A stretch of 64,000 bases of DNA from positions 62,001 through 126,000 of the forward strand of contig DATJTX010000021.1 in NCBI GenBank assembly GCA_035502855.1, read 5' to 3'. Positions 5,906 through 19,630 of this stretch are shown piece by piece. The notes under the pieces are model-generated. The model searched no databases and was not told the DNA's origin. It saw only the letters and a program-made list of their open reading frames with translations. The stretch is from Candidatus Baltobacteraceae bacterium. GTDB taxonomy: Bacteria > Vulcanimicrobiota > Vulcanimicrobiia > Vulcanimicrobiales > Vulcanimicrobiaceae. The position numbers were made by a program, and so were the translations under genes. Position 1 is the first letter of the stretch. Each line of letters begins with the position of its first letter.

Positions 5906-7765
5906 GTGTCGATGTGGCGATTTACGGCGGGACTTCTCACGTGTACCCTGCTCCTCGGGGCCGCGCAACCAGCGGCGAAAACCTCCGCGTTCGACATCTT
6001 GGGCGCCAGCATCGATCTCGCGGTCGATCGTGACGGAACGAGATTGCCGGCAACGCAGGTGCCGTTTCTCAAGTCCGGCGACGGCATCGAGATTTCGTTT
6101 TCCAAGGGCGTGCAGTTCAGCCGCATGCCGCGCTGGCATCTGATCGTCGCCGACATGTACGAGAACTATCTCGAACACCCGCCGGTCTTCTCGATTCCGG
6201 ATGCGGACCTGAGCCGCGCGAAAGCGGGTACGGTGTGGAAGACGGTCGTGCCCGCCGATGCAACCCCGCTGATCTTTCTCGTGCCCGAGAGCGGAAGCCG
6301 GTACGGTCACGGCATCCCGGATGCGCGCGCAGCGATCGCCGAACTGAGCAACCGCGCGTTGTTGCTGCGCACGGCCAGGCTTTCGGCGAGCGTGCAGGTC
6401 AAGGCATCGACGCTGCGATCGTTCCTCGGTTCGCTCGCGTCGATTCAACCCGGTGAACTCGCCGACGGGCGCGCGCGCGTCGCGGCGGCCTCGCAATCGC
6501 TTTTCGGCTCGAATCTGGGCGGCGAGGCGTGTTTCAACTCGACGGTTGCGCAAAGCACGCAGTACGCATGCGCGGCGCAAGCGGTGGCGGCGGGCTACGA
6601 GAGTTCACCCAAGCCCGCCGTCGTGGCGGCGGTCGGCAGCGGTCTATCCGTCAACACGGCGACTTACGGAATGCTGATCGGCACGCTCTATCAGCTCTTG
6701 GCCAAGCGCCGTGTTTCCGCGCATTATAGTTTCGAACCCGGCGTCGTCAAGCCCGGCGCCAAGACGACCGACGTCTACGTCAGCGAACAGCTCCAGTACG
6801 ATCCCAGCGCGGCGAAACCGTCCACGATCGTGTATTTCACGATCGGCTCACGGGCGACCAGTCCGAAGCCGCCGGTTTATGGCCCCGCTCCGGCGCTCCC
6901 GGTGTGCCTGGCGGATCGCGCACTCGATCTGACCATCCCGTTTAGCGCGCTTCCGATCTATTTCCGAAGCCACGAGGTCAGGTTCAAAGCCGGCGGAGCG
7001 AGCTTCGCGGTTCCGGCCACGTATGACGTGGTTCGCGGGTATCGTGCCGATCTGAGTGCGCAGCAGTTTTCGGAACTGAAGTCGGGCGGCACGGCGAGTA
7101 TCGTCAGCAATTGGGGTTTCGAGAGCGTGCAGTCACCGGCGATCGATATCATCGAGCCGCATCCGGTGAAATGGGCGCTGCAGAAGGCGGGAACCTCGCT
7201 GGTCGCCGGAGCCAAATCGGCGCGGTTGACGTTCGACGACGCGGGGGCAGGAATGGGAAGCTGCGTGCAAACCGTCGAGGTGACGGACGAATTGGGTGAT
7301 ACGATCGCGCTCACGAAACTCGAGCGCGCAAAAGATACGGTGACGGCATCGCTGGATGCGTCGCAAGCCGGCGGAGCGAGCGGAAGCGCGATCGTGCGAG
7401 AGCTCGGGAATATCGAGTCCACGCCGGTCGCATTTACGATCCTGCCCGCGATGCCGTCGATCACCAGCGCGATCGCGTATCTTCCCAAAGGCGTGCTCGT
7501 GCTCAAGGGAACGGGCTTGAAGTACATCGCGAGCGTGATGCTCGAACGAACCGGCATTCGATTCGGATCGGGTACGCCGGATTCCGACGGATCGTGGTCG
7601 TTCACGGCGCAAACGCCGGCCGGCTACAACGCGGCATGGGAACACGAAACGATGGCGATTTCGTTTACGCTCGCCCCGCCCGACAAACGGACGGCGGCGG
7701 TGGAAGCCGACGTCGAATACGCTCCAACGCCGGCTCCCTCGCCTACATCGACGCCGACTCCCTAG
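5906..7765 (+). CDS. Secreted protein of unknown function with Pro/Thr-rich tail
   Basis: A 619-residue exported protein; I do not recognise the family. It starts at GTG 5906 or ATG 5912 with a signal peptide (MWRFTAGLLTCTLLLGAA). The middle is a mix of beta-rich segments, including a late section (about 510-600) resembling an IPT/TIG or Ig-like fold with GTGLKYIASVML. The protein ends in a low-complexity tail of Ala, Pro, Thr and Ser, typical of surface or cell-wall-spanning linkers. Two Cys pairs in the mature part could form disulfides. Its stop codon overlaps that of the convergent S53 protease gene (shared CTAG), so the pair shares one terminator region. Confidence 0.6.
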   Translation: MSMWRFTAGLLTCTLLLGAAQPAAKTSAFDILGASIDLAVDRDGTRLPATQVPFLKSGDGIEISFSKGVQFSRMPRWHLIVADMYENYLEHPPVFSIPDADLSRAKAGTVWKTVVPADATPLIFLVPESGSRYGHGIPDARAAIAELSNRALLLRTARLSASVQVKASTLRSFLGSLASIQPGELADGRARVAAASQSLFGSNLGGEACFNSTVAQSTQYACAAQAVAAGYESSPKPAVVAAVGSGLSVNTATYGMLIGTLYQLLAKRRVSAHYSFEPGVVKPGAKTTDVYVSEQLQYDPSAAKPSTIVYFTIGSRATSPKPPVYGPAPALPVCLADRALDLTIPFSALPIYFRSHEVRFKAGGASFAVPATYDVVRGYRADLSAQQFSELKSGGTASIVSNWGFESVQSPAIDIIEPHPVKWALQKAGTSLVAGAKSARLTFDDAGAGMGSCVQTVEVTDELGDTIALTKLERAKDTVTASLDASQAGGASGSAIVRELGNIESTPVAFTILPAMPSITSAIAYLPKGVLVLKGTGLKYIASVMLERTGIRFGSGTPDSDGSWSFTAQTPAGYNAAWEHETMAISFTLAPPDKRTAAVEADVEYAPTPAPSPTSTPTP

Positions 7766-9597
7766 GGATTGCTCGGCGTCTGGGGATTTCCGGCTAGCGG
7801 CGCAAGCGGATCGAGCGCGTATTGCGCACCGTACGGCGTTCCGTTTCCGACCACGTAGTTGTAGCCGCGTTTCGACGGATATCCGTTGTTACCGGGGATG
7901 TCGTTGTGGAAGACCGGACCGTTCCCGACCGTGCCGAGCGCGGCCAGCGCGTAGAGCAGGTAATTCGCGTTGCCGGCGCGGCTGTGTGTGATTTGATCTT
8001 GAACGGCTTGCAAGCCCGCAAACTCCGGTGACGAGGCGCTGGTGCCGATCAGCAGATAGAACTGACCGCCCAGGGCGGTGACGTCGGAGCTGCGATCCGG
8101 GCCGCATGGCGTCACCGATCCCACCGGACATCCGCCCATGTGCATCGCCACGTCGGGGTTGGTGCGCATCCGCGAACCGGTGTTGACCAAGTCCTGATAC
8201 GGTGGTTTCGGCCAGTAGATGCTGACGCCGCCGCCCGATCCCCAGATCTCGCCGGCCGGTTCGCCCGAGTCGGCTGCGAATGTGTCGTGGTCGGCGTTCT
8301 CAGCCACGTACGCCGAACGCAACGTGCTCGTGTAGGTGGTAACCAGATTGGTGCCGCCCACCGCGGTGACGTCAGGATCGTTCGCCGGCCAGTTGATGCC
8401 GAGCGTCGCGATCGTTCCCGTCGGGTCGGTACATTCCATCGCGCCGAAATCGCCGGAGGAATTCATGAACGTGATCCCTTGGGCGTTGCCTTGACGATAG
8501 AGATCGTGGAAGTCTTGAAAGAGGTACGTGAAATCTTCGCCGTCGTTGTAGGCTGCGGTGAAATAGAGTTCGCACAAGCCGAACGACGTGCTCACCACGT
8601 CGGCCAGATTGTCTTCGTCGATCGCGGTGTACATGTCGAGGAAGGAGGGCGCGATCGACGCGTCCGGGGCTTCGTAGACGATGATCTTGGCGCCGGGTGC
8701 CGACCCGCCCGATTGCTGAACGTCGAGCGAGACTTCATCCGAGTAGCCGCTGTCGATGTTGAACGGCGGGCTCCCGCCGTCGACCGGCCGGCGAATCACC
8801 GTCGGCGGGGTGAGATTCTCGTGACCGAAGTAGAGTGCGACGTCGCTGTCGAGAAAATCGCTGGCCGCGAGAATCGCGATCGTCTCGCCGCGGCCGCTCG
8901 CGTCGGCGTACGAGGGATAGGCGTAGGCTTGTTTGAGATCGTCGAACCAATACGGCCCGACGTTGCTGTAACGGTTGTCCGGAAACGCCGCCGTCGTTCC
9001 GGCGAACATAAAGTCCGGCTTGAGCGCCGGCAGCGGCGCGAACGCCGCGACCGTCGCGTCGACCTTTGCCAGCGGGGCCGGTATCGTCGGCGCTTTGTTC
9101 GATTGCAGCAGTTGCACCGGCGCGGCACCGCGCGTGAGGGCCGCGCTGCGTTGCGCCAAAGTGACACCGAAGGTACGTTCGACGATAGCCTGCGGCGCAT
9201 CCGCAACGACTCCCTGTGAGGTGATCGTCGTCTTGAAGCCTTGCGCGTTCAGCGCCGTTGCGACCGTTTGCAGGTCGCTAAGCGCCGGCCCGTACGATGC
9301 CCGGAATTGCGCCGGCGTCAAGAAATGATGATAGAGCGGCGAACCCTGTGTGCTTTGGTCAGCGATGAGCTGATCGAGTTCGGCACTGTTGCGCAGCGGA
9401 AGATGCACGTAGACGCGCACGTCCGCCGGCGCACCGGAGGGATAGGCAAACGACTGCGAGGCGGCCGCGCCGGTCGCGAGATTCGTTTGCGGAAGGTTCG
9501 TCATGGGAACGGGACTCGAGGAGTTGCCGCCTCCGCCGCACGCGGAGAGCGCGAAGAACGCAGCGGCAGCCAACCCGAAGGGTGCACGTATTGCCAT
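7762..9597 (-). CDS. Secreted S53 family serine-carboxyl peptidase (sedolisin/kumamolisin type)
   Basis: A 611-residue exported protease made as a proenzyme, normally active at acid pH. The signal peptide ends in LSAC, a lipobox-like sequence suggesting lipidation. Residues about 50-190 are the pro-kumamolisin activation domain (YHHFLTPAQFRASYG is diagnostic). The peptidase domain covers about 215-600. The catalytic Glu and Asp lie in DEVSLDVQ (near 286-290), the oxyanion Asp in SSGDFGA (near 381) and the Ser in GTSASSPEFAG (near 519). The C-terminal DIPGNNGY region fits the calcium site. Length agrees with the family. The stop overlaps that of the convergent upstream gene. Confidence 0.92.
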   Translation of the reverse strand: MAIRAPFGLAAAAFFALSACGGGGNSSSPVPMTNLPQTNLATGAAASQSFAYPSGAPADVRVYVHLPLRNSAELDQLIADQSTQGSPLYHHFLTPAQFRASYGPALSDLQTVATALNAQGFKTTITSQGVVADAPQAIVERTFGVTLAQRSAALTRGAAPVQLLQSNKAPTIPAPLAKVDATVAAFAPLPALKPDFMFAGTTAAFPDNRYSNVGPYWFDDLKQAYAYPSYADASGRGETIAILAASDFLDSDVALYFGHENLTPPTVIRRPVDGGSPPFNIDSGYSDEVSLDVQQSGGSAPGAKIIVYEAPDASIAPSFLDMYTAIDEDNLADVVSTSFGLCELYFTAAYNDGEDFTYLFQDFHDLYRQGNAQGITFMNSSGDFGAMECTDPTGTIATLGINWPANDPDVTAVGGTNLVTTYTSTLRSAYVAENADHDTFAADSGEPAGEIWGSGGGVSIYWPKPPYQDLVNTGSRMRTNPDVAMHMGGCPVGSVTPCGPDRSSDVTALGGQFYLLIGTSASSPEFAGLQAVQDQITHSRAGNANYLLYALAALGTVGNGPVFHNDIPGNNGYPSKRGYNYVVGNGTPYGAQYALDPLAPLAGNPQTPSNP

Positions 9598-10878: not shown

Positions 10879-10888
10879 TGCGCGGTTC

Positions 10889-10907
10889 AATGCAGCGGTC
10901 TTGAAAA
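10889..10907 (+). repeat. Left boundary repeat of island (attachment-site-like tRNA-Ser fragment)
   Basis: AATGCAGCGGTCTTGAAAA is identical to 19564-19582 inside the tRNA-Ser gene. The similarity extends with a few mismatches from about 10882 to 10921, covering the D-loop edge, the anticodon arm and the start of the variable arm. The tRNA 5' half and acceptor stem are absent here. Same orientation as the tRNA gene. Confidence 0.75.
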
Positions 10908-11480
10908 TCACAAACGCCACGCTGTCCAAGTCTTCGCTAACGCGCTTTACGCACGAAAACTCGAACTGCCGGGACTTACCAAGACTTATCATGACCTAAT
11001 CCGTGACCCAACCGTGACTAGATCCGACATTTGGTCTCAGATCGTTAGCCTTGCGGCGCAGCGGTCAACGGGAGCCTTTTGCCGGATAGTCGGCCGATCG
11101 CGCCCGACCGAGCCGGCCCCGGATATCGCCCTCGCCTCGGGGCGACCACCACCTCGCCTCGGGCCAGGTTTGGCTCTATGCCGGCAGGCCTCGGAGCCGG
11201 GATTCGGGCGCCTCGGCATTGGTAACTGGCGTCCGCGCGGCGCTGAACCCATAGCGTGGTTGTTGCGCTGGAACTAGGTCTAAGGGCTTGGTACCAACGC
11301 ATTGTCGGCGCGGAAGTGCGAAGCGTCTCCCATTGTGACATGGGCCATAAATCCCAAAATTCGACGAGACAGGACAGTCGCTCGTCGCTTTGAACCAGCC
11401 TGGAAACATGCTGTGACAGGCGGGGTGACCTGGACGAGCCGTTAGACGACGAAGAGGTCGTCGAGAAGAAGCCGAGACCC
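10908..11480. other. Left island end without a recognisable gene
   Basis: About 570 bases hold no convincing reading frame. A frame running without stop from 11394 into the helicase gene lacks ATG, GTG or TTG before 11481, yet its translation is acidic then basic and protein-like. The helicase may therefore have an unusual start (CTG) or a lost N-terminus. No integrase remnant could be identified. Confidence 0.4.
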
Positions 11481-14400
11481 TTGCGCAGCGCGGTCATTCC
11501 ATATTGGAGGACCGTGCTGCGAGCGTTAAGCGCCGAAGATCTCATTGAGGACGGGAAATTCATTGCCGTGGCTCTTGGTCCCGATTGGGACCGAGGCGTC
11601 GTTTCGCTTAAGGCTGCGGAGTGGAAAAAACTCGGATTCAAGGACGGCGACGATCATATCCGTGTTGTCGTCGCGCTGGGATTCTTTCACAATTCAAGGA
11701 CGAAGGAGAAAGACTCGAATCATATACTCCTATCTTGGGCTGCATCTCTCAGTCGAGACGGACGGATATCTCCCGTCGAAGGCGCGGCGCCGATCATTGC
11801 GGATGAGTTTTATGATGACAGCGCTAAGAAGAGGCTCGCGCTTGCGTCGCGTGCAGCAGCAAAAAGATTTCTCGAGGAACGTCCCTGCCCTTCGCCCGAG
11901 GACGGCTGGCCTGCGCTTCTTCAGTATGCGCGTGACTACTATCGCGCGGCGTGCCGCAACGGCGTTCTGTTGGATGGTAAAGGGCCGACCACTCGCATCT
12001 ACGCCGAACCCGAAGAGGGCGATGCGAAGATCGCTAACTTGCTGCGTCTGTATGACGATCTTGAAGATTTGAACGGTGACGAGACCGCCCTCTACGACGC
12101 CCTCATCACTCCAAGGTCAAGTTCGCTGGTTCCATCGGATGCGGACCTTCGAGATGTTGCGCATGGCAACGAGGCCTTCCATTGTGCTCACGTCGACCCG
12201 CGCTATGGGCTCGACCCGGATCAAAGGCGCGCCGTGCGAAGCCTGCTATCGTCGACGACGCCCTCGATTGTTGCGGTAAACGGACCACCCGGCACAGGAA
12301 AGACCAGTATGCTCAAGGGTGTCATCGCGAGCGTATGGATAGCGCCACTACTACAGAAAGACTTTCCAGAGCCGCCGCTTATCATTGCAACTGCCGCGAC
12401 AAACCAGGCCGTCACAAATATCATCGCTGGTCTAGGGGATACTGCTCGTGGCAACGACCCATTCGAGAAACGTTGGTTACTCGGCGTGAACGGTGAAGAA
12501 ATCGCACCGTCCTATGGGTGGTTCTTTGCATCGAAAACGTCTGCTAGCAAATATCCGCGGTTCATGCAGCTGACGCTGGAGAAAGGTTTCCCGAGGCTGT
12601 ATGCGGACAAGGCGGGCAGTGGTGTCGATGGTAGCGATCAGGCACTCGTGTCTCAGTACGTGAAGGCATACGCTGCAGCCACATTAACGCCGATTGGTGT
12701 GCATAAAAAAGAATATATCAGGAAGACCATCCTCCGAGCTCTTCTTGAGAAAATTCGGGAATTATGGGCGAATGAGCGACGGCTCTATGAAGAGGCGGTG
12801 GCATTCGATAGGAACCCATCTGATCTACATAAGTCCGCGCTCGTTAACGGAATCAACGCCGCTGCCAAGGAGTGTGCAACTGCGGGCTCCGTTGATGGCC
12901 GAGCGACGCTGACGACTCTTGTTGCCGCGATCAATGATCGCGATGCGGGGTTCTGGGAGGCGTACGAGTGCTTCGTTGACACGGCGTACCGACGGCGGTT
13001 GTTCGCGATCGGCGCAAGGTATTGGGAAGGGCGGTTCATTGTTGGAGAACGAGGAGACACACGACCTGATACCGTTCGGTACTACGCGATGGTCGCGCCC
13101 GTTGTCGTTGCGACATGCCACACTCTTCCCAAGCTGCTATTCGACTACGATAAGCAAGAAAAAGTAAATCACCCGCGTTTTGGCTACGCGGACCTTCTGA
13201 TTGTAGATGAGGCCGGTCAGGCGAATCCGCCGCTAATAGCCGGTCTTTTTGGACTTGCGCGCAAGGCGCTTGTGGTTGGCGACGTAGAGCAGCTCGAGCC
13301 CGTGCTAAAGCTTCTCGAGTCGGAAGATGACATGCTTCTTCGTTCCGCGGGACTCGACTCAGCGGGGAGTTCCGTGCAGCCGCTGAAGGCGTCACAAGGA
13401 AACGTGATGCGTCTTGCGCAGGCAGCGAGTGCATTTAAGGAGGAGAGTGGTCCCGGTCTTACACTGCGACGTCACTACCGATGCGTCCCTGACATCATCG
13501 ACTTCTGCAACAGAAATGTATACGGCGGTGATCTGCGCTGTATTCGTCGCAATGATTCGAAGCCGCTGTACGGCAAGCACTTGCTCTTTGTAAGGTCTGA
13601 CGAGGGCGGTTACCAATCTTCTGGCAGCTGGGTAAATGACCGAGAGGCTGAAGCGATCGCGTCGTGGCTCGTTCGCGAACGTGGGAATATCGAGGCTTGG
13701 GCTAAGCGCACAAATCGCGATGGCGATCTGGCGGATATTGTTGGGATTATCACCCCGTACGAGCCGCAGGAATGGAAATTGCGGCACGCGATTGAGGCTG
13801 CTTTCTCCGCAGCCGCGGCCACCGAGGACCGCCGAGCTAGCGATGCCGCGATGGTTGAACGGATGACGATCGGGACAGTTCACAAGTTGCAGGGCGCAGA
13901 GCGGCCGATCATCATCTTTTCTGGAACGTCTGACAATGCGAAGTCGCGGCCCTATTATGATAAGGATCGACGCCTGCTGAACGTCGCGGTATCGCGAGCG
14001 AAAGATACGTTTGTGCTCTTTGGTGAGAGCCAGACGTTTTTCGAGGCTCCCGGTGACGGCGACGGAACTCGCGGAACGTCACTATTGGGAAGGCATGTGC
14101 TGGCTCGCGGTAAGCGTCTGTTCCCGCGTAACGTCGTTGTGGTCGAGTCGACGAACAAAACCCGAAAAATTCAGCGTTATCTCGGCGTCGACTATCTTGT
14201 GCTGCACTCAGGTGGCCACATTCGGAAGCTTAAGACTGGAAGGCGCGGCGTTGACGTCGATCGCGGGTTTGCACCCGAATACGAAGAGCTCGCCGAAGGG
14301 ACGCGATTGCTTGATCGAGTGCGAAGAGAGCTTCCTGAGATAGATCGCCTAATATTGGCTACGGACGCCGACCGCGAGGGCGATCACATCGCGCAAGCGA

Positions 14401-15002
14401 TTGTCGAAGCATTGGCGGGTGACGATACGAGTCATGTCACGGTGCAGCGTGTTCATCTGGAAGCGGTAAATCGTGCGGCGGTATCACGTGCGTTTGGCCG
14501 GCCGGCTGAGCTGGATCGGCAGTCGGCAGTCGCGGCGCGTACGCGCGAAATACTGGATTACCTGATTGGGCATCTTATCCCGACGGTTTTGCAGAATGAT
14601 GAGGACGTTCGTGGATCTTCTGGGCGAGTTCAAGCCGCGGCGCTTGCGCTGTTAATGGGCCGGGAGCAAGCTAGGCGGATTCGCGGGCAGAGATATCGTC
14701 TGACTCTTGGCGATCCAGACTCCGCCGATCGCACGACGTTGGCGGAACTCATACTTCCGGCAGGCGTGTCACCCCCTCTCGAGGGTACGCGATTCGGGCG
14801 TGTAGCCGTGGAATGTCGTGAGCTGCGGCTGCCAAGCGCCCCCGCTTCGACAACGGTTGAGGTATTGCGGCGAGCGTCGTCTGAATTAGGGCTCTCGCCG
14901 ACCGCTACTATGGCGGCCCTTCAAGAACTATTCGAGGGGCCACGTGAGATTGTCGTAAATGCGTCGCACCCTGCCGATCCGCAGACGGAGCTGCCACTCT
15001 AG
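11481..15002 (+). CDS. UPF1-like SF1 helicase fused to TOPRIM/core part of a type IA topoisomerase
   Basis: A 1173-residue fusion. Residues about 250-870 are an SF1B (UPF1/DNA2-like) helicase: Walker A GPPGTGKT near 268, DEAGQ near 575, GDVEQLEPV, RRHYRCVPDI, HKLQGAE and NVAVSRAKD. From about 885 a type IA topoisomerase begins: TOPRIM strand VVVESTNKTRKIQRYLG, GGHIRKLK, the metal motif ATDADREGDHIA near 958, then SSGRVQAAALALL near 1047. The protein stops after ALQELFEG, exactly where the topoisomerase active-site Tyr segment should follow. That segment is absent here and in the other frames. The remainder of the enzyme is encoded by the next two genes. The start is TTG with a weak ribosome binding site. 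The stop overlaps the next GTG (TAGTG). Arrangement recalls reverse gyrase but with a different helicase family. Confidence 0.85.
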   Translation: MRSAVIPYWRTVLRALSAEDLIEDGKFIAVALGPDWDRGVVSLKAAEWKKLGFKDGDDHIRVVVALGFFHNSRTKEKDSNHILLSWAASLSRDGRISPVEGAAPIIADEFYDDSAKKRLALASRAAAKRFLEERPCPSPEDGWPALLQYARDYYRAACRNGVLLDGKGPTTRIYAEPEEGDAKIANLLRLYDDLEDLNGDETALYDALITPRSSSLVPSDADLRDVAHGNEAFHCAHVDPRYGLDPDQRRAVRSLLSSTTPSIVAVNGPPGTGKTSMLKGVIASVWIAPLLQKDFPEPPLIIATAATNQAVTNIIAGLGDTARGNDPFEKRWLLGVNGEEIAPSYGWFFASKTSASKYPRFMQLTLEKGFPRLYADKAGSGVDGSDQALVSQYVKAYAAATLTPIGVHKKEYIRKTILRALLEKIRELWANERRLYEEAVAFDRNPSDLHKSALVNGINAAAKECATAGSVDGRATLTTLVAAINDRDAGFWEAYECFVDTAYRRRLFAIGARYWEGRFIVGERGDTRPDTVRYYAMVAPVVVATCHTLPKLLFDYDKQEKVNHPRFGYADLLIVDEAGQANPPLIAGLFGLARKALVVGDVEQLEPVLKLLESEDDMLLRSAGLDSAGSSVQPLKASQGNVMRLAQAASAFKEESGPGLTLRRHYRCVPDIIDFCNRNVYGGDLRCIRRNDSKPLYGKHLLFVRSDEGGYQSSGSWVNDREAEAIASWLVRERGNIEAWAKRTNRDGDLADIVGIITPYEPQEWKLRHAIEAAFSAAAATEDRRASDAAMVERMTIGTVHKLQGAERPIIIFSGTSDNAKSRPYYDKDRRLLNVAVSRAKDTFVLFGESQTFFEAPGDGDGTRGTSLLGRHVLARGKRLFPRNVVVVESTNKTRKIQRYLGVDYLVLHSGGHIRKLKTGRRGVDVDRGFAPEYEELAEGTRLLDRVRRELPEIDRLILATDADREGDHIAQAIVEALAGDDTSHVTVQRVHLEAVNRAAVSRAFGRPAELDRQSAVAARTREILDYLIGHLIPTVLQNDEDVRGSSGRVQAAALALLMGREQARRIRGQRYRLTLGDPDSADRTTLAELILPAGVSPPLEGTRFGRVAVECRELRLPSAPASTTVEVLRRASSELGLSPTATMAALQELFEGPREIVVNASHPADPQTELPL

Positions 15003-16036
15003 TGGCCCACGCGCAACTAACTCCAACGGATCTGCGTGTGGCGGCGGAAGATATTCGCAAAATGTATCGTGGCGCAGAGGAGAACGTAGTTCGCGTCTAC
15101 GATATCGTCCGGCGCTGTTCACTGAGAGCTCTATCGGCGAAGCCGCTCGTCGTGGAGAACGTTACTTCTTGGAAGCAAGGCGATTGGCTTGTCCGTACCG
15201 TCGGCAGGAAAATCATCGAATTCGGGTGGCTGGAGTACGACGAGTTCGCAAGGGAGAAATACGCCGAAAGCGACAGTCTAGCTGAGTTGGATGAGGTCTC
15301 CGTTTTGGCGACGGAATTGTCGGACGACGTAGGCATGCCACTGGCCGACCTCCTGGAGGCCATGGCCCTCCTCCAGATAGGGCGACCGTCAACATATGCT
15401 TCCACTATCCAACGGTTGGTCGAGAAGGGCTATATCGATCTTTCGGGCAGCAACGTGACGCTGACAGGCGGCGGACGTGAGATGTTTGAAGCCCTTCGCC
15501 GCAGCATGCCGCTAGTCACTGACGTGTCATTCACAGCCCTTGTCGAGCGGAGCCTCGACGCGATCGCAGCTGCTGAATCCGTCAACGAGTCGCGCCGTTT
15601 AGCGGACACTCTTCTGCGCGACCTCTGGGCGAGGCTAAACAGTAAGGACTACTATGTTGCGCAGATCGATGCCGAGTCATTCAACTATGCGCCCAATGTT
15701 ATCGACGCGGAACGTGTTGCAGAGTATTTGATTCCGAGGGACCATCCGCTACGGCTAGAGCTAAGTCGCTTTGAGGCACTCGCGGTCGATCGGCGCGAGA
15801 TGATCGACGAAATAGCGCTTAACATCGCTAAGCGAGTGTCGGTGTATGGAGTATTCGCCCTGATGCATATTGGCGCTGCGCTGGGGGCGCGCTCGGCTGA
15901 AGAATTGAGCGAACTCCTCGAGTTTGACGTACGGGCGCGATGGTTTGTTGATTATCCGCTTGATCGCTCCGCCTGGCCCGCCGACCTCATCAGGCCAGTA
16001 GTCGAGCAAATCCGTGAGCACCTCGGCGGTGGATGA
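15002..16036 (+). CDS. C-terminal core fragment of a split type IA topoisomerase
   Basis: A 344-residue protein that continues the topoisomerase begun in the previous gene. Its N-terminus AHAQLTPTDLRVAAEDIRKM matches the AHEAIRPSD segment that follows the active-site domain in TopA. LQIGRPSTYASTIQRLVEKG (near residue 127) matches the GIGRPSTYAPI motif, and VTDVSFTALVERSLDAIA matches the distal core. No zinc-finger tail is present. The catalytic Tyr segment that would precede AHEAIRP is missing from this protein too. The GTG start overlaps the upstream stop by one base and the 3' end overlaps the next gene by 23 bases, so the products are probably made in fixed ratio and assemble. Residues about 200-340 are divergent and helical. 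Confidence 0.8.
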   Translation: MAHAQLTPTDLRVAAEDIRKMYRGAEENVVRVYDIVRRCSLRALSAKPLVVENVTSWKQGDWLVRTVGRKIIEFGWLEYDEFAREKYAESDSLAELDEVSVLATELSDDVGMPLADLLEAMALLQIGRPSTYASTIQRLVEKGYIDLSGSNVTLTGGGREMFEALRRSMPLVTDVSFTALVERSLDAIAAAESVNESRRLADTLLRDLWARLNSKDYYVAQIDAESFNYAPNVIDAERVAEYLIPRDHPLRLELSRFEALAVDRREMIDEIALNIAKRVSVYGVFALMHIGAALGARSAEELSELLEFDVRARWFVDYPLDRSAWPADLIRPVVEQIREHLGGG

Positions 16037-16997
16037 AGATCAGGCGAAGGAGCCGGAAGAAAGGCCTGCATCAGAAGGCTCCTCGGCCGCACAGGAAGGG
16101 GCGTCGCGGGTTGCAGGCGGTGGCGACGATGGCGGTTCGGTAACCTATCCGAGAACAGACGGAACGGAACTGGATGAGGACGTCCGTCGCACGGCCGAGG
16201 CACTGGGACTGAATCCTGACCTGCTGCGGGACTACGCAGACCTTCGGATACTTACCGACGAGAATCTCGCGGCCATCTCGTATGCGGCTATTCAGTACGA
16301 CCTGGCCGCGGCTGTTCTATTGATTTCTCAACTGGAGGCGCTCCTTGCGTCTCCGGAGGTGATGAAAAACCCGAGGCTTGCCGGCGCAATTATCGAAGCG
16401 CTGCGCCGCGCGCGCCTTGCTGCATACAGTCATCAGGCGCTCGCGAGTCGAAAATCTTGGGCTGAGCAGCATCTGTTCGACACGTCGAGGAGCCACTTCG
16501 CATACGCGATGCCCGCATCCGCGGCAAGGAATGCGCTCGACGAGGTCCTCGCCAGGGCGCCGTTAGGTCGAACATCATCAGGCTTTCGTGGACTCGTCGA
16601 AGATTTGGGCATGGAAGGCGGTTCATGTTACATCGGCTGGATGATCGGGAAGCCTCTCGATGCACAGTCCCTAGTCTCGTTCACGGGTCGCAATACGTTC
16701 AATGGGTTTTACTTTGACCATGAGATCCGTTCGGTACAAGTGCTCGAAGCGAAGGGCGGAGGGTCACACCTTGGATACGCCGCTGGTCTTCGTCAGGGAA
16801 CCCAAGCGTACTTCGGTCATATTCTGTCGCGCATGGAGAGCTCGCCAGATTCGAGGAGACGCGCTGAGGCCCAGGACCTAATCAAGGCTTACAAGGATGG
16901 GTACGACGTGCGGTACGTCGGTGTGCGAACTACGTACGCGACCGGAAGCGAAGACCCCACTAAAGTGTTCGATTCGCGGATTACCCTAGCCTTATGA
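16014..16997 (+). CDS. Protein joining a topoisomerase active-site Tyr motif to a restriction-endonuclease-like domain
   Basis: 327 residues, not a known family as a whole. After an acidic, disordered N-terminus it has VTYPRTDGTELDED (Tyr45, Arg47, Asp49). TYPRTD is the active-site signature of type IA topoisomerases, here separated from the rest of the enzyme, which is split between the two genes upstream. Residues about 65-160 are helical. The C-terminal third contains FYFDHEIRSVQVLEAKGGGS, an Asp followed by E-A-K as in PD-(D/E)XK nucleases, and QGTQAYFGHILSRM, as in REase-fold polymorphic toxins. I infer that it supplies the transesterification Tyr in trans and a nuclease activity. The start GTG lies in the upstream gene and the end overlaps the next ATG (ATGA). 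Confidence 0.65.
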   Translation: MSTSAVDEDQAKEPEERPASEGSSAAQEGASRVAGGGDDGGSVTYPRTDGTELDEDVRRTAEALGLNPDLLRDYADLRILTDENLAAISYAAIQYDLAAAVLLISQLEALLASPEVMKNPRLAGAIIEALRRARLAAYSHQALASRKSWAEQHLFDTSRSHFAYAMPASAARNALDEVLARAPLGRTSSGFRGLVEDLGMEGGSCYIGWMIGKPLDAQSLVSFTGRNTFNGFYFDHEIRSVQVLEAKGGGSHLGYAAGLRQGTQAYFGHILSRMESSPDSRRRAEAQDLIKAYKDGYDVRYVGVRTTYATGSEDPTKVFDSRITLAL

Positions 16998-17737
16998 GCT
17001 ATCCGTTTGAACTCGATAGGAGCTTCGTCGAACTGCTGCGTGCGAACGCCGCAGAAGTCGTGATCGACATTGACGAGCGAATGTCACCCGACTACCTTGG
17101 TCCGCGAGCTGCCCCCGATGCCCTAGCTGCGCTTGCGGCGCGTGAGTGGCGCAGAATCACGGCATTTGAACACGCTGCGGGTCGGGCCGCTGTGCCGCCG
17201 GCTGGCCGGGCTGCAGCCTATGCATCGCGAGTTCTCGCCCGGGCGTCTACAATGACGCCGCACAGTTTTTTTAGCTGGTTCGGGATCGCGTTACTGGCAG
17301 CGTCCAATGTTCTGGTTGAAGCGCTGTGTGCGCTGGACCTGGGCGTCTTTCGTGAGTCTGGCGCAATAGAGTCACGGGCCGCGGAGGAGTTGGCGCGAGG
17401 CTGGCAGCGCGCATTTTCGGCGAACGAGAGCCTCGCTGTATCGGAACGGGTTGACTTCGAGCGCCTCATCGAGCTGGACAAGCTCGATCTCGACCATGCT
17501 GACGAATTAGAGAGCCTTTGGCGAGTGACGCTGGCTGTAGCTTCGAGAAGCCCCGACGAATTAGAGGCGAGCGTAGCGTTTCGGGCACGGAGCTTCGATC
17601 GTAGAGCGCGCGACGTAGAGGAGCGTTATGTGTCTGACTCCTTGCTCGACCTACCACTGACGGCGCTCGTAATTTACGGTCGGAGTCGTGGCTTGCGAGT
17701 GCCGCTTAGGACTCCCTACGTGGCGAAGGTGGAATAG
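16994..17737 (+). CDS. Island operon protein of unknown function (possible immunity protein)
   Basis: A 247-residue, mostly helical soluble protein; the family was not recognised with certainty. It has a weakly hydrophobic helix (FFSWFGIALLAASNVLVEAL, about 93-112) and an acidic-basic C-terminal half with the segments ELDKLDLDHADEL and RSFDRRARDVEERYVSDSLLDLP. Its place directly after a nuclease-domain gene, with a 4-base overlap, is where an immunity protein would be expected. The general look resembles Imm-type helical immunity proteins, but this is inference. The stop TAG overlaps the next GTG. Confidence 0.6.
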   Translation: MSYPFELDRSFVELLRANAAEVVIDIDERMSPDYLGPRAAPDALAALAAREWRRITAFEHAAGRAAVPPAGRAAAYASRVLARASTMTPHSFFSWFGIALLAASNVLVEALCALDLGVFRESGAIESRAAEELARGWQRAFSANESLAVSERVDFERLIELDKLDLDHADELESLWRVTLAVASRSPDELEASVAFRARSFDRRARDVEERYVSDSLLDLPLTALVIYGRSRGLRVPLRTPYVAKVE

Positions 17738-18210
17738 TGGGCTACACCTTAGAGTTATATGCACTCCGGCTTGAAACGCTTGAGACGATTGCGCGCGGCA
17801 GCGTTAAGCCCGAAGAGGTCGAACGCGCCATCTGGGATCGTGGTCAGGGAGATATTCGCGAGGGTACCTTTAGCGATGCGGCTGTAGATTTGCTAATCGA
17901 CCTCATTCGCACGCGAGGTCGCCGCCTTGTCTCACTGGAACACGCAAGCTGGTCGGGACAAGAGTTCCGAGCTACTATCGAACGAATTGCAGGTTCTTCG
18001 CTGCTGCGTAGGCCACTGATTGGCATTGAAACGGGTGATTTTCCCTGGATTGGCTGGCTGACGTTGTCAGAGGCAGCGTCGGTTGGAGTGCGCCAACTCG
18101 ATTCATTCGATTTGTCGGGACCTGACGAACAAGGATGGGCATCCGACCTCTGGCGCGCACTCGATTATGCGACGCGCGTCCAACTTGATGTGGTCAGCAT
18201 TTACACCTGA
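17737..18210 (+). CDS. Small island operon protein, DUF7691/immunity-like
   Basis: A 157-residue protein starting at GTG 17737, which overlaps the preceding stop by one base. The N-terminus MGYTLELYALRLETLETI, an acidic middle and a C-terminal helix LWRALDYATRVQLDVVSIYT resemble small immunity-type or DUF7691-like proteins, which often open with M-x-Y followed by a YA-x-x-L segment. I do not know a defined function. It is the last gene of the five-gene coupled operon; a 278-base gap follows. Confidence 0.5.
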   Translation: MGYTLELYALRLETLETIARGSVKPEEVERAIWDRGQGDIREGTFSDAAVDLLIDLIRTRGRRLVSLEHASWSGQEFRATIERIAGSSLLRRPLIGIETGDFPWIGWLTLSEAASVGVRQLDSFDLSGPDEQGWASDLWRALDYATRVQLDVVSIYT

Positions 18211-18488
18211 TGCTGCATGGCATGATGGACCGGCTATTGGGGTCCGGCGACCACCGCCGATGTCATGGCCCAGGCGACCCCATTGCTCGTCCTCTCGCTA
18301 CCGGGCCTTCCTGGCGGGCAGCCGACCGACCGGTTCCGCTTTCCATCGGGTCCCCCTCAGAGGCGGCCTGCCTGGTCTCCCGAAAGTAGCGCGCCCATGG
18401 CTTGTAGCTCCGGTGAGCGAGTGAACCGTGCCTTCTTTACAACTTCGCCGTTTCGCGTTAGTGTAGAGTAACTTCGGGAAAAAGCGAA
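18211..18488. other. Gap between island operon and toxin-antitoxin pair
   Basis: No convincing gene. Near its right end TTTACA (18436-18441) and TAGTGT (18459-18464), with a 17-base spacer, could form a sigma-70 type promoter for the toxin-antitoxin genes. The Pro-rich frame at 18265-18471 looks non-coding. Confidence 0.35.
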
Positions 18489-18878
18489 GTGGCGAGCATT
18501 CGGGTGACGCCCTTCTCGGCGGGAGGCAAGCAAGATGTCATCCGGCAGTTCCTTGGCAAGGATGCCAAGCGTCTACCCGGCGTGGCCACTGCGGTCTTTG
18601 ACGCCCTGCGGGTGCTCGAACTCACCCCGCAGGTCGATCTCAAAGCGCATGGATGCCTGTCGCTGCTGCGCGACGGCGTATGGGAAGTTCGGGTCGAAAA
18701 GATTCCCGCCATCAAGAAACCCAAAGACCATTGGGTCCGATTGTTCGTGGCCTACTACCCCACCGGCATCGAGTGCGTCGTCCTTCTCGTGAAAGTGAAG
18801 AAGACGAACAAAATTGATCCGGATGATACAAATCAAGCGATACGAAACTTGGGGCTTTACAAGAGACAACGTTCATAG
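18489..18878 (+). CDS. RelE/HigB-type toxin (Gp49-like)
   Basis: A 129-residue protein matching the phage-derived Gp49-like/HigB group of RelE-fold mRNA interferases. It has a helical N-terminus, CLSLLRDGVWEVRVEK as the central strands, then VRLFVAYYPTGIECVVLLVKVKKTNK and a C-terminal helix. Basic residues in the KKTNK segment are where the family places its catalytic and RNA-binding side chains. It would cleave ribosome-bound mRNA unless bound by the antitoxin. The start is GTG. The antitoxin gene follows within 12 bases, the toxin-first order typical of HigBA. Confidence 0.75.
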   Translation: MASIRVTPFSAGGKQDVIRQFLGKDAKRLPGVATAVFDALRVLELTPQVDLKAHGCLSLLRDGVWEVRVEKIPAIKKPKDHWVRLFVAYYPTGIECVVLLVKVKKTNKIDPDDTNQAIRNLGLYKRQRS

Positions 18879-18890
18879 GTGAAAGTAAGC

Positions 18891-19286
18891 ATGAAAACTC
18901 AGTCGTGGCGCGGAGACAGTCTGACCGATCAACTCGCAAAGGAGTATCCAGAGCTAGCACGCCATGCCGAGGAAACCGCGGGACTGCCGGAGTTGGCGTC
19001 CGCTTTGATCCAACTGCGTGCAAGAGGCGGGTTGCGGCAAGCCGATTTAGCGAAAGCTGGCGGCCTGCCCGTCACCCTCGTTTCGGAGCTCGAAAATGCC
19101 CAGAACAAAGGCGTTGCTTGGCGAACGCTGCAGCGCCTAGCAAAAGGAGCGGGGGCCCGGATCGAGCTGTCATTCATCATTGATCCATGCAACGCTGGCG
19201 AGGTTAACGTCAGTGTGGTCGGCCCGACCGGTCCGGAAGCCGGCGTCGATTCCGCCGACGCCCGCTGGCGTCGAAATTCCCCATGA
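18891..19286 (+). CDS. XRE-family antitoxin (HigA-like)
   Basis: A 131-residue protein with a helix-turn-helix of the XRE/Cro type: IQLRARGGLRQADLAKAGGLPVTLVSELENAQNKGVAWRTLQRLAKGAG. The ATG at 18891 is preferred over a GTG at 18879 because AGGTG lies nine bases upstream of it. As in HigBA modules, the antitoxin follows the toxin and probably autoregulates the pair. The C-terminal tail after the HTH is long and low in structure, and may have been altered by a frameshift since an open frame continues in another phase. Confidence 0.75.
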   Translation: MKTQSWRGDSLTDQLAKEYPELARHAEETAGLPELASALIQLRARGGLRQADLAKAGGLPVTLVSELENAQNKGVAWRTLQRLAKGAGARIELSFIIDPCNAGEVNVSVVGPTGPEAGVDSADARWRRNSP

Positions 19287-19305
19287 ACGTTTAATAGCGT
19301 CCATC

Positions 19306-19491
19306 GTGAACGAACTCGCACGTTCTCGCGTGCGCCACCGGGCATTACTGGATATTCTTGAAGAGCGCGGCCTCGTCAAGATCGCCGACAATGTCGAACG
19401 CTATCGTCTTGAAGAAGAACGCGACTTCAAGCCACTCGTTACATTCGTGACCAAATCCATGAACCAAATGGGCTTGAAGCGAATGCCGTGA
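19306..19491 (+). CDS. Small hypothetical protein at the right island end
   Basis: A 61-residue frame starting at GTG. Its translation (VNELARSRVRHRALLDILEERG, then charged helical sequence) looks protein-like, and the same frame is open upstream through the antitoxin tail. It could be an independent small gene or a displaced 3' part of a longer antitoxin after a frameshift. No family was recognised. Confidence 0.35.
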   Translation: MNELARSRVRHRALLDILEERGLVKIADNVERYRLEEERDFKPLVTFVTKSMNQMGLKRMP

Positions 19492-19542
19492 CCAAGCCCG
19501 AATCCCGAAAGCCCTGGTAGAAATCGGCGTTAGCGGGGACAT

Positions 19543-19630
19543 GGAGAGGTGGCAGAGCGGTTTAATGCAGCGGTCTTGAAAACCGCAGAACGCGATGAGC
19601 GTTCCGTGGGTTCGAATCCCACCCTCTCCT
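19543..19630 (+). tRNA. tRNA-Ser (anticodon UGA)
   Basis: A complete class II tRNA. The acceptor stem GGAGAGG pairs with CCTCTCC. The anticodon arm GCGGT-CTTGAAA-ACCGC places TGA as anticodon. The long variable arm is GAACGC-GATGA-GCGTTC and the T arm GTGGG-TTCGAAT-CCCAC. The CCA end is not encoded. Its anticodon arm is one copy of the 19-bp repeat that bounds the genomic island. Confidence 0.97.
19564..19582 (+). repeat. Right boundary repeat of island (tRNA-Ser anticodon arm)
   Basis: Identical to 10889-10907 in the same orientation. It lies within the functional tRNA gene, so the tRNA remains intact after insertion. Confidence 0.75.

Follow-up and report, generated by a model that had tools for sequence, protein, structure and literature searches.

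To our knowledge, the type IA topoisomerases described so far all have their active-site Tyr on the same chain as the TOPRIM site. Reverse gyrase joins a superfamily 2 (SF2) helicase module to a type IA topoisomerase, whose Tyr lies on that same chain. Hachiman (HamAB) pairs a helicase sensor with a separate nuclease effector; it lacks a topoisomerase, and no active site is shared. The superfamily 1 (SF1) helicase of Mokosh type II has a PLD-like domain of its own (PMC10952713). Here, we describe a locus in a 64,000-nucleotide stretch (the window) of the Candidatus Baltobacteraceae bacterium assembly GCA_035502855.1 (contig DATJTX010000021.1, positions 62,001 to 126,000, forward strand), in which a type IA topoisomerase is divided among three genes and the Tyr peptide is displaced to a probable toxin. 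A sequence-only reading of the window had proposed a topoisomerase spread over three genes. That split is borne out, although the reading had missed the helicase, the immunity gene, the defense-island setting, and the loss of one acidic TOPRIM residue in most relatives. It knew of no described system of this kind, and we found none in the literature searched (one may have been published elsewhere).

The locus resembles these systems in part. Its helicase is of the same SF1 family as that of Mokosh type II (PADLOC MkoC, 455 to 520 bits) and is likewise found in defense islands, but a TOPRIM/topoisomerase region replaces the PLD-like domain, and three further genes are present. As in reverse gyrase, a helicase is fused to a type IA topoisomerase, but the helicase is of the SF1 type (AAA_11/AAA_12) and no Tyr is present on the chain. 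With bacterial TopA, the system shares the TOPRIM, GRVQ, LYEG, AHxxxTP, and GRPST motifs and, for one member, a predicted fold; unlike TopA, it has the Tyr segment on another protein and has usually lost the acidic residue at the E115 position. The three genes and their catalytic parts in the window are as follows.

11481 (or slightly upstream) to 15002, + strand: gene 1, MkoC-type SF1 helicase followed by TOPRIM and the first topoisomerase part (open reading frame [ORF], Pfam, and PADLOC)
14145-14147, 14157-14159, 14364-14366, and 14370-14372, + strand: TOPRIM catalytic codons of gene 1 (Glu, Lys, and the two Asp of DxD, respectively)
14928-14999, + strand: LFEG, which normally lies ahead of the active-site Tyr, then the 20-residue tail PREIVVNASHPADPQTELPL and the stop
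15002-16036, + strand: gene 2 (topoC), C-terminal topoisomerase part with the AHAQLTPTD start, GRPSTYA, and about 140 extra C-terminal amino acids (PF01131)
16014-16997, + strand: gene 3, the effector, with the Tyr peptide GSVTYPRTDG and a probable PD-(D/E)xK toxin domain (motif reading)

Approximately 75% of gene 1 (about residues 1 to 870) is an SF1 helicase (PADLOC MkoC, 519.7 bits, 4.7e-156). Pfam detected AAA_11/AAA_12, then Toprim (2.7e-13), and then the first part of Topoisom_bac; no PLD-like domain was detected by Pfam at the C terminus, where Toprim and Topoisom_bac are found instead. The Streptococcus mutans TopA matches gene 1 at 1.4e-25, and the topoisomerase motifs of this gene are TOPRIM (VVVES and ATDADREGD), SSGRVQ, and LFEG. 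Gene 2 matches positions 214 to 403 of PF01131 (4.3e-21). From residue 2 onward, it aligns with residues 364 to 573 of Escherichia coli TopA (1ecl; 1.7e-7), such that its start is A364-H365 and its His3 (15008-15010) is E. coli His365. Pfam and the E. coli TopA alignment thus confirm what had been read from the letters, namely, that gene 1 has TOPRIM and SSGRVQ and ends after LFEG and that gene 2 opens with AHAQLTPTD and contains GRPSTYA. The Y-x-R-T-D motif is absent from both genes, and the profile stretch missing from the pair is the Tyr segment (about PF01131 positions 156 to 210). This peptide is found near the N terminus of gene 3 as GSVTYPRTDG (residues 41 to 50; Tyr45, 16146-16148; Arg47, 16152-16154). 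When 18 other loci were used to build a profile of the Tyr peptide (12 columns), gene 3 ranked first among the 584 ORFs of the window, and the sites of the catalytic Tyr in 19 ordinary TopAs came next. Both the absence of the motif from genes 1 and 2 and its presence in gene 3 had been claimed before and hold.

The same split was found at 19 further loci, in proteobacteria and Myxococcota, on a plasmid, and on a phage contig. One was obtained by plasmid tblastn, 13 by scanning genomes with the helicase-TOPRIM junction as the query, four by profile searches (about 1,185 genomes from three orders), and one by a viral-contig scan. The gap is the same at all 20 loci, the window included, and at each of them a nearby gene opens with a Tyr-x-Arg peptide, which lies within 10 residues of the start in 19. 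As the effector was never used as a query in these homologue searches, the Tyr peptide at effector starts represents an independent result. At the Polaromonas JS666 locus found by plasmid tblastn, a helicase-TOPRIM gene ending in LYLG is followed by the effector (start, MSGVSSYPRTRG; HNH domain), a YrhA/SUKH-type immunity gene, and topoC (start, MTMHAHPMLTP), in that order. Effector starts elsewhere include MGLITYPRTKG, MGDITYPRVDG, MSGGLTSYPRTGG, VSKISYPRTQT, MGHISYPRTAG, LSGVISYPRTDG, MGYITYPRSTG, MSGLSSYPRSGA, MGFISYPRTAA, VNITGYPRTGS, and MSSISYPRTAA. Such a peptide occurs at the start of only 6 unrelated ORFs among about 7,900 start sites. Four loci and the phage contig turned up only once the prediction was in place, and all five agree with it; every effector homologue found keeps Tyr-x-Arg.

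The frame breaks between genes 1, 2, and 3 could also be expected of a decayed or misassembled topoisomerase gene. We assign almost no probability to this explanation, given that 20 independent loci have conserved breakpoints, that the ORFs are intact in almost all of them, and that the locus is a single copy without an assembly duplicate. An intact separate TopA was present in all 14 host genomes checked, and the window genome has one ordinary TopA elsewhere. In the host genomes, the system's helicase chain covers PF01131 positions 2 to 155 and topoC covers 211 to 410, whereas the housekeeping TopA covers 2 to 410. The comparative data on the 20 loci rule out a broken gene or an assembly error, and the displacement of the Tyr to a nuclease-like protein, with the other catalytic residues on other chains, is well supported. 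Two outcomes that the sequence-only reading had named as damaging to it did not occur, as the effector homologues all retain Tyr-x-Arg and the relatives have the split too, with an intact TopA as a separate gene.

The helicases of the system group into a single clade (support, 100/99) that excludes PLD-type MkoC. In the MkoC proteins of L034 and P0009, a PLD-like domain was seen by eye at the C terminus. In the Myxococcales locus L037 (6673-11152), the helicase is split by a frame break, reflecting a sequencing error or decay. No second copy was found among 149 genomes of the window's own phylum. A conjugative plasmid carries one member. Another, L153 (1-1254 and 4098-11683), is on an IMG/VR contig and adjoins a large terminase gene, which suggests that it is probably prophage borne. 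Single-protein scans of viral contigs with gene 1, gene 3, and the query A1 yielded no match, and four further viral-contig matches were ordinary MkoC where inspected.

Members from Pseudomonas, Burkholderia, and L142 have both topoisomerase halves on one chain. In these, about 30 linker residues stand where the Tyr segment would be, between LYDG or LYEG and GHPPVxPLD, and GRPST (GKPSS in L142) comes next; the Tyr segment is the only part missing, and the Tyr peptide opens the next gene. An AlphaFold2 model of the Tyr-less Pseudomonas chain (L038) had a mean predicted local distance difference test (pLDDT) score of 76 and a predicted template modeling score of 0.75; the linker was one of the few stretches modeled with low confidence. 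Foldseek matched this model to E. coli TopA (E value, 2.5e-20) and, more weakly, to reverse gyrase. On this model, the chain is predicted to adopt a type IA topoisomerase fold. In Azonexus (L046:11173-12450), the Tyr peptide is fused directly to topoC (PF01131 positions 157 to 383) and no toxin is present. This form may represent the state before insertion of the toxin cassette, possibly an ancestral, toxin-free one, or the state after its loss.

The catalytic residues are conserved over the three proteins. The TOPRIM Glu, Lys, and D-x-D are identical in 19/19 members, as are one Arg each in R..LD and GRVQ, the effector Tyr and Arg, and the topoC His; L153 also retains all catalytic residues. 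The third TOPRIM acidic residue (E115 position) is kept in four of 19 members (the window, L036, L037, and L143), is Asp in three, and is lost in 12. Its loss in most members argues against an ordinary relaxing topoisomerase. In type IA enzymes, divalent metal is dispensable for cleavage and required for resealing, and metal-site mutants are lethal via trapped cleavage complexes (PMC7587558). Because resealing alone needs the metal, it is reasonable to read the system, from its residues, as one that may cleave DNA without efficient resealing. With the third acidic residue lost in 15 of 19 members (counting the three with Asp), resealing may be poor, and the effector may then stay attached to the DNA.

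Two other explanations bear on these residues. The locus might encode a working three-subunit topoisomerase that is linked to a toxin by addiction, such that loss of either is punished, and whose real job is relaxation or decatenation. The retention of all core catalytic residues, the four members with E115, and the toxin-free L046 would agree with this, but we consider it improbable, as the toxin type varies while the topoisomerase is constant, E115 is lost or replaced in most members, and the hosts have an intact TopA. Alternatively, the Tyr peptide could be a docking tag or safety latch that completes the fold and holds the effector until the helicase is triggered, in the manner of Hachiman, with the Tyr chemistry unused. 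HamB is described as restraining HamA until DNA damage is encountered (PMC12278908). Along with this precedent, the loss of the third acidic residue in most members and the degenerate GRVQ region of the L029/L046/L047/L048 group speak for a docking role. Such a role would require neither the Tyr and Arg seen in 20/20 loci nor the TOPRIM Glu, DxD, and Lys and the topoC His kept in all members, and we regard it as unlikely.

The effectors have exchangeable C-terminal domains. HNH-type effectors are found in L029, L036, L037, L047, L143, and L153, with SUKH-type neighbors in L029, L036, L047, L143, and L153 (several of these matches are just under Pfam cutoffs), and an EAKGG-type effector is found in L038, L039, and L045. 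The effectors of L043 and L041 are alike in their N-terminal approximately 60 residues only. In Acidithiobacillus (L048:11576-12358), the effector begins with TTYSRTSG and is preceded by an extra 155-amino-acid (aa) gene; its C-terminal domain had no match in the libraries searched. The Pseudoalteromonas effector (L040:12032-12856) is short and looks truncated relative to that of L144 (440 aa); it lies near a contig end. The C-terminal domain of gene 3 has the pattern D..LEAKGGGS..RQGTQAY (D..ExK..Q). The features beyond gene 3 and the island around the locus are as follows.

16994-17737, + strand: gene 4, a probable immunity protein, weakly Imm49-like, with an ATGA overlap with gene 3
17737-18210, + strand: gene 5, of the same operon by position, with a 1-base overlap with gene 4 and no library match
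18489-19286, + strand: HigB/HigA-like toxin-antitoxin pair, island cargo (Pfam; Gp49-like, 18489-18878; helix-turn-helix, 18879-19286)
10882-19587, strand neutral: genomic island of 8.7 kb carrying the gene 1-5 system (31-nt repeat and G+C content)

Gene 4 matches Imm49 (PF15575) at 3.6e-4 and 20.7 bits, below the Pfam cutoff of 30.1. Imm49 is listed as a partner of Tox-REase-1 and Tox-REase-6, which have the motifs E, D, ExK, and Q (PMC3482391). Given this pairing, gene 3 is likely a nuclease toxin, and its C-terminal domain is probably one on the basis of the D..ExK..Q pattern and the neighboring gene. The D...EAK nuclease-like domain noted earlier thus gained a fuller pattern and an Imm49-like neighbor, although no match to it was found in the database libraries searched (Pfam and PADLOC among them). 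Gene 3 matches at E values of about 1e-4 in genomes of the family fell inside unrelated proteins and were due to chance. An AlphaFold2 model of gene 3 was uninformative (pLDDT, 37.6). Profile tests of the window toxin, gene 4, and gene 5 as a Pseudomonas-type cassette were unsupportive beyond the EAKGG motif.

Polymorphic toxins (Tox-REase-1/-6 with Imm49 and HNH with SUKH) likewise have a constant N terminus, a swapped C-terminal toxin, and an adjacent immunity-type gene, but here the constant N terminus is a topoisomerase active-site peptide and a trafficking domain is lacking. The effectors could accordingly be viewed as competition toxins delivered to other cells, with the helicase-topoisomerase as a packaging or transfer device (e.g., via a conjugation channel). 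Polymorphic toxin systems typically combine a C-terminal toxin that can be exchanged with immunity of the SUKH or Imm49-like type (PMC3482391), and the member on the conjugative plasmid would suit such delivery. We nevertheless find this very improbable: Pfam detected no trafficking or secretion domain in the effectors, whose N terminus is the Tyr peptide, no secretion gene was seen beside the loci, the defense neighbors are intracellular, and a member was found on a phage contig.

Defense genes neighbor at least seven loci, i.e., retron I-B (L041), type I restriction-modification (L042), GajB (L038 and L142), SIR2 (L039), Orf5/DUF262 (L037), and PDC-S02 (L045); these neighbors were chosen by eye before testing, and the count represents no controlled enrichment. 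An extra gene (380 to 735 aa) lies just upstream of the helicase, often overlapping it, in L038, L039, L040 to L045, L141, L142, and L144. At least two groups of this gene can be told apart by sequence; the window lacks it, and no Pfam or PADLOC match was obtained in those tested. The window island is bounded by a 31-nt direct repeat (10882-10912 and 19557-19587), the right copy of which sits within tRNA-Ser(TGA) (19543-19630), and its G+C content is below that of both flanks. No integrase was seen inside the island (10882-19587). Partial copies of the same tRNA-Ser lie near the full gene in relatives (e.g., G041:C7, 197709-197754 and 201242-201338), which suggests that this site is an integration hotspot. 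Just beyond the island, a gene for an S53-peptidase-like secreted protein was seen by eye at 7762-9597.

On balance, we favor, with some reserve, the reading of this locus as a mobile antiphage defense system with an exchangeable effector that supplies the Tyr nucleophile in trans. The sequence-only reading had likewise proposed that the three products assemble and that the Tyr acts in trans, possibly linking strand passage to DNA cleavage; that proposal is partly supported. The helicase would sense and unwind foreign or damaged nucleic acid and feed a single strand to the split active site. There, the N-terminal strand of the effector would fit into the slot left empty in the topoisomerase and supply the nucleophile, the Tyr would cut the single strand and become joined to its 5' end, and the toxin domain would thereby be positioned on the DNA, where it could destroy the invader, or the cell itself if left unchecked. 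As a brake, the immunity protein would keep the free toxin inactive. A more specific version, which we hold only tentatively, takes the topoisomerase half-reaction itself as the coupling: the effector Tyr would join the 5' DNA end received from the helicase and remain unreleased, such that the nuclease would be fixed permanently to the genome of the invader.

Several observations weigh against the favored reading. The window Tyr lies 44 residues from the start, versus 5 to 8 in all others. No relative could be detected for the toxin domain of the window, and its assignment as a nuclease comes from reading a motif. In the betaproteobacterial members, the GRVQ/R..LD regions are degenerate, and catalysis may have been lost there as a result. 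Finally, the neighborhood does no more than suggest a defense role.

The reading directly predicts a covalent effector-DNA adduct that depends on gene 1, gene 2, and Tyr45. If it is true, these loci would represent a new way to build an enzyme, with the nucleophile on an exchangeable toxin, a novel route for directing a toxin to DNA, and a means by which defense systems could swap effectors and keep one sensor. If the coupling version is also true, the system would defend by covalent protein-DNA joining, with the nucleophile coming from an exchangeable toxin.
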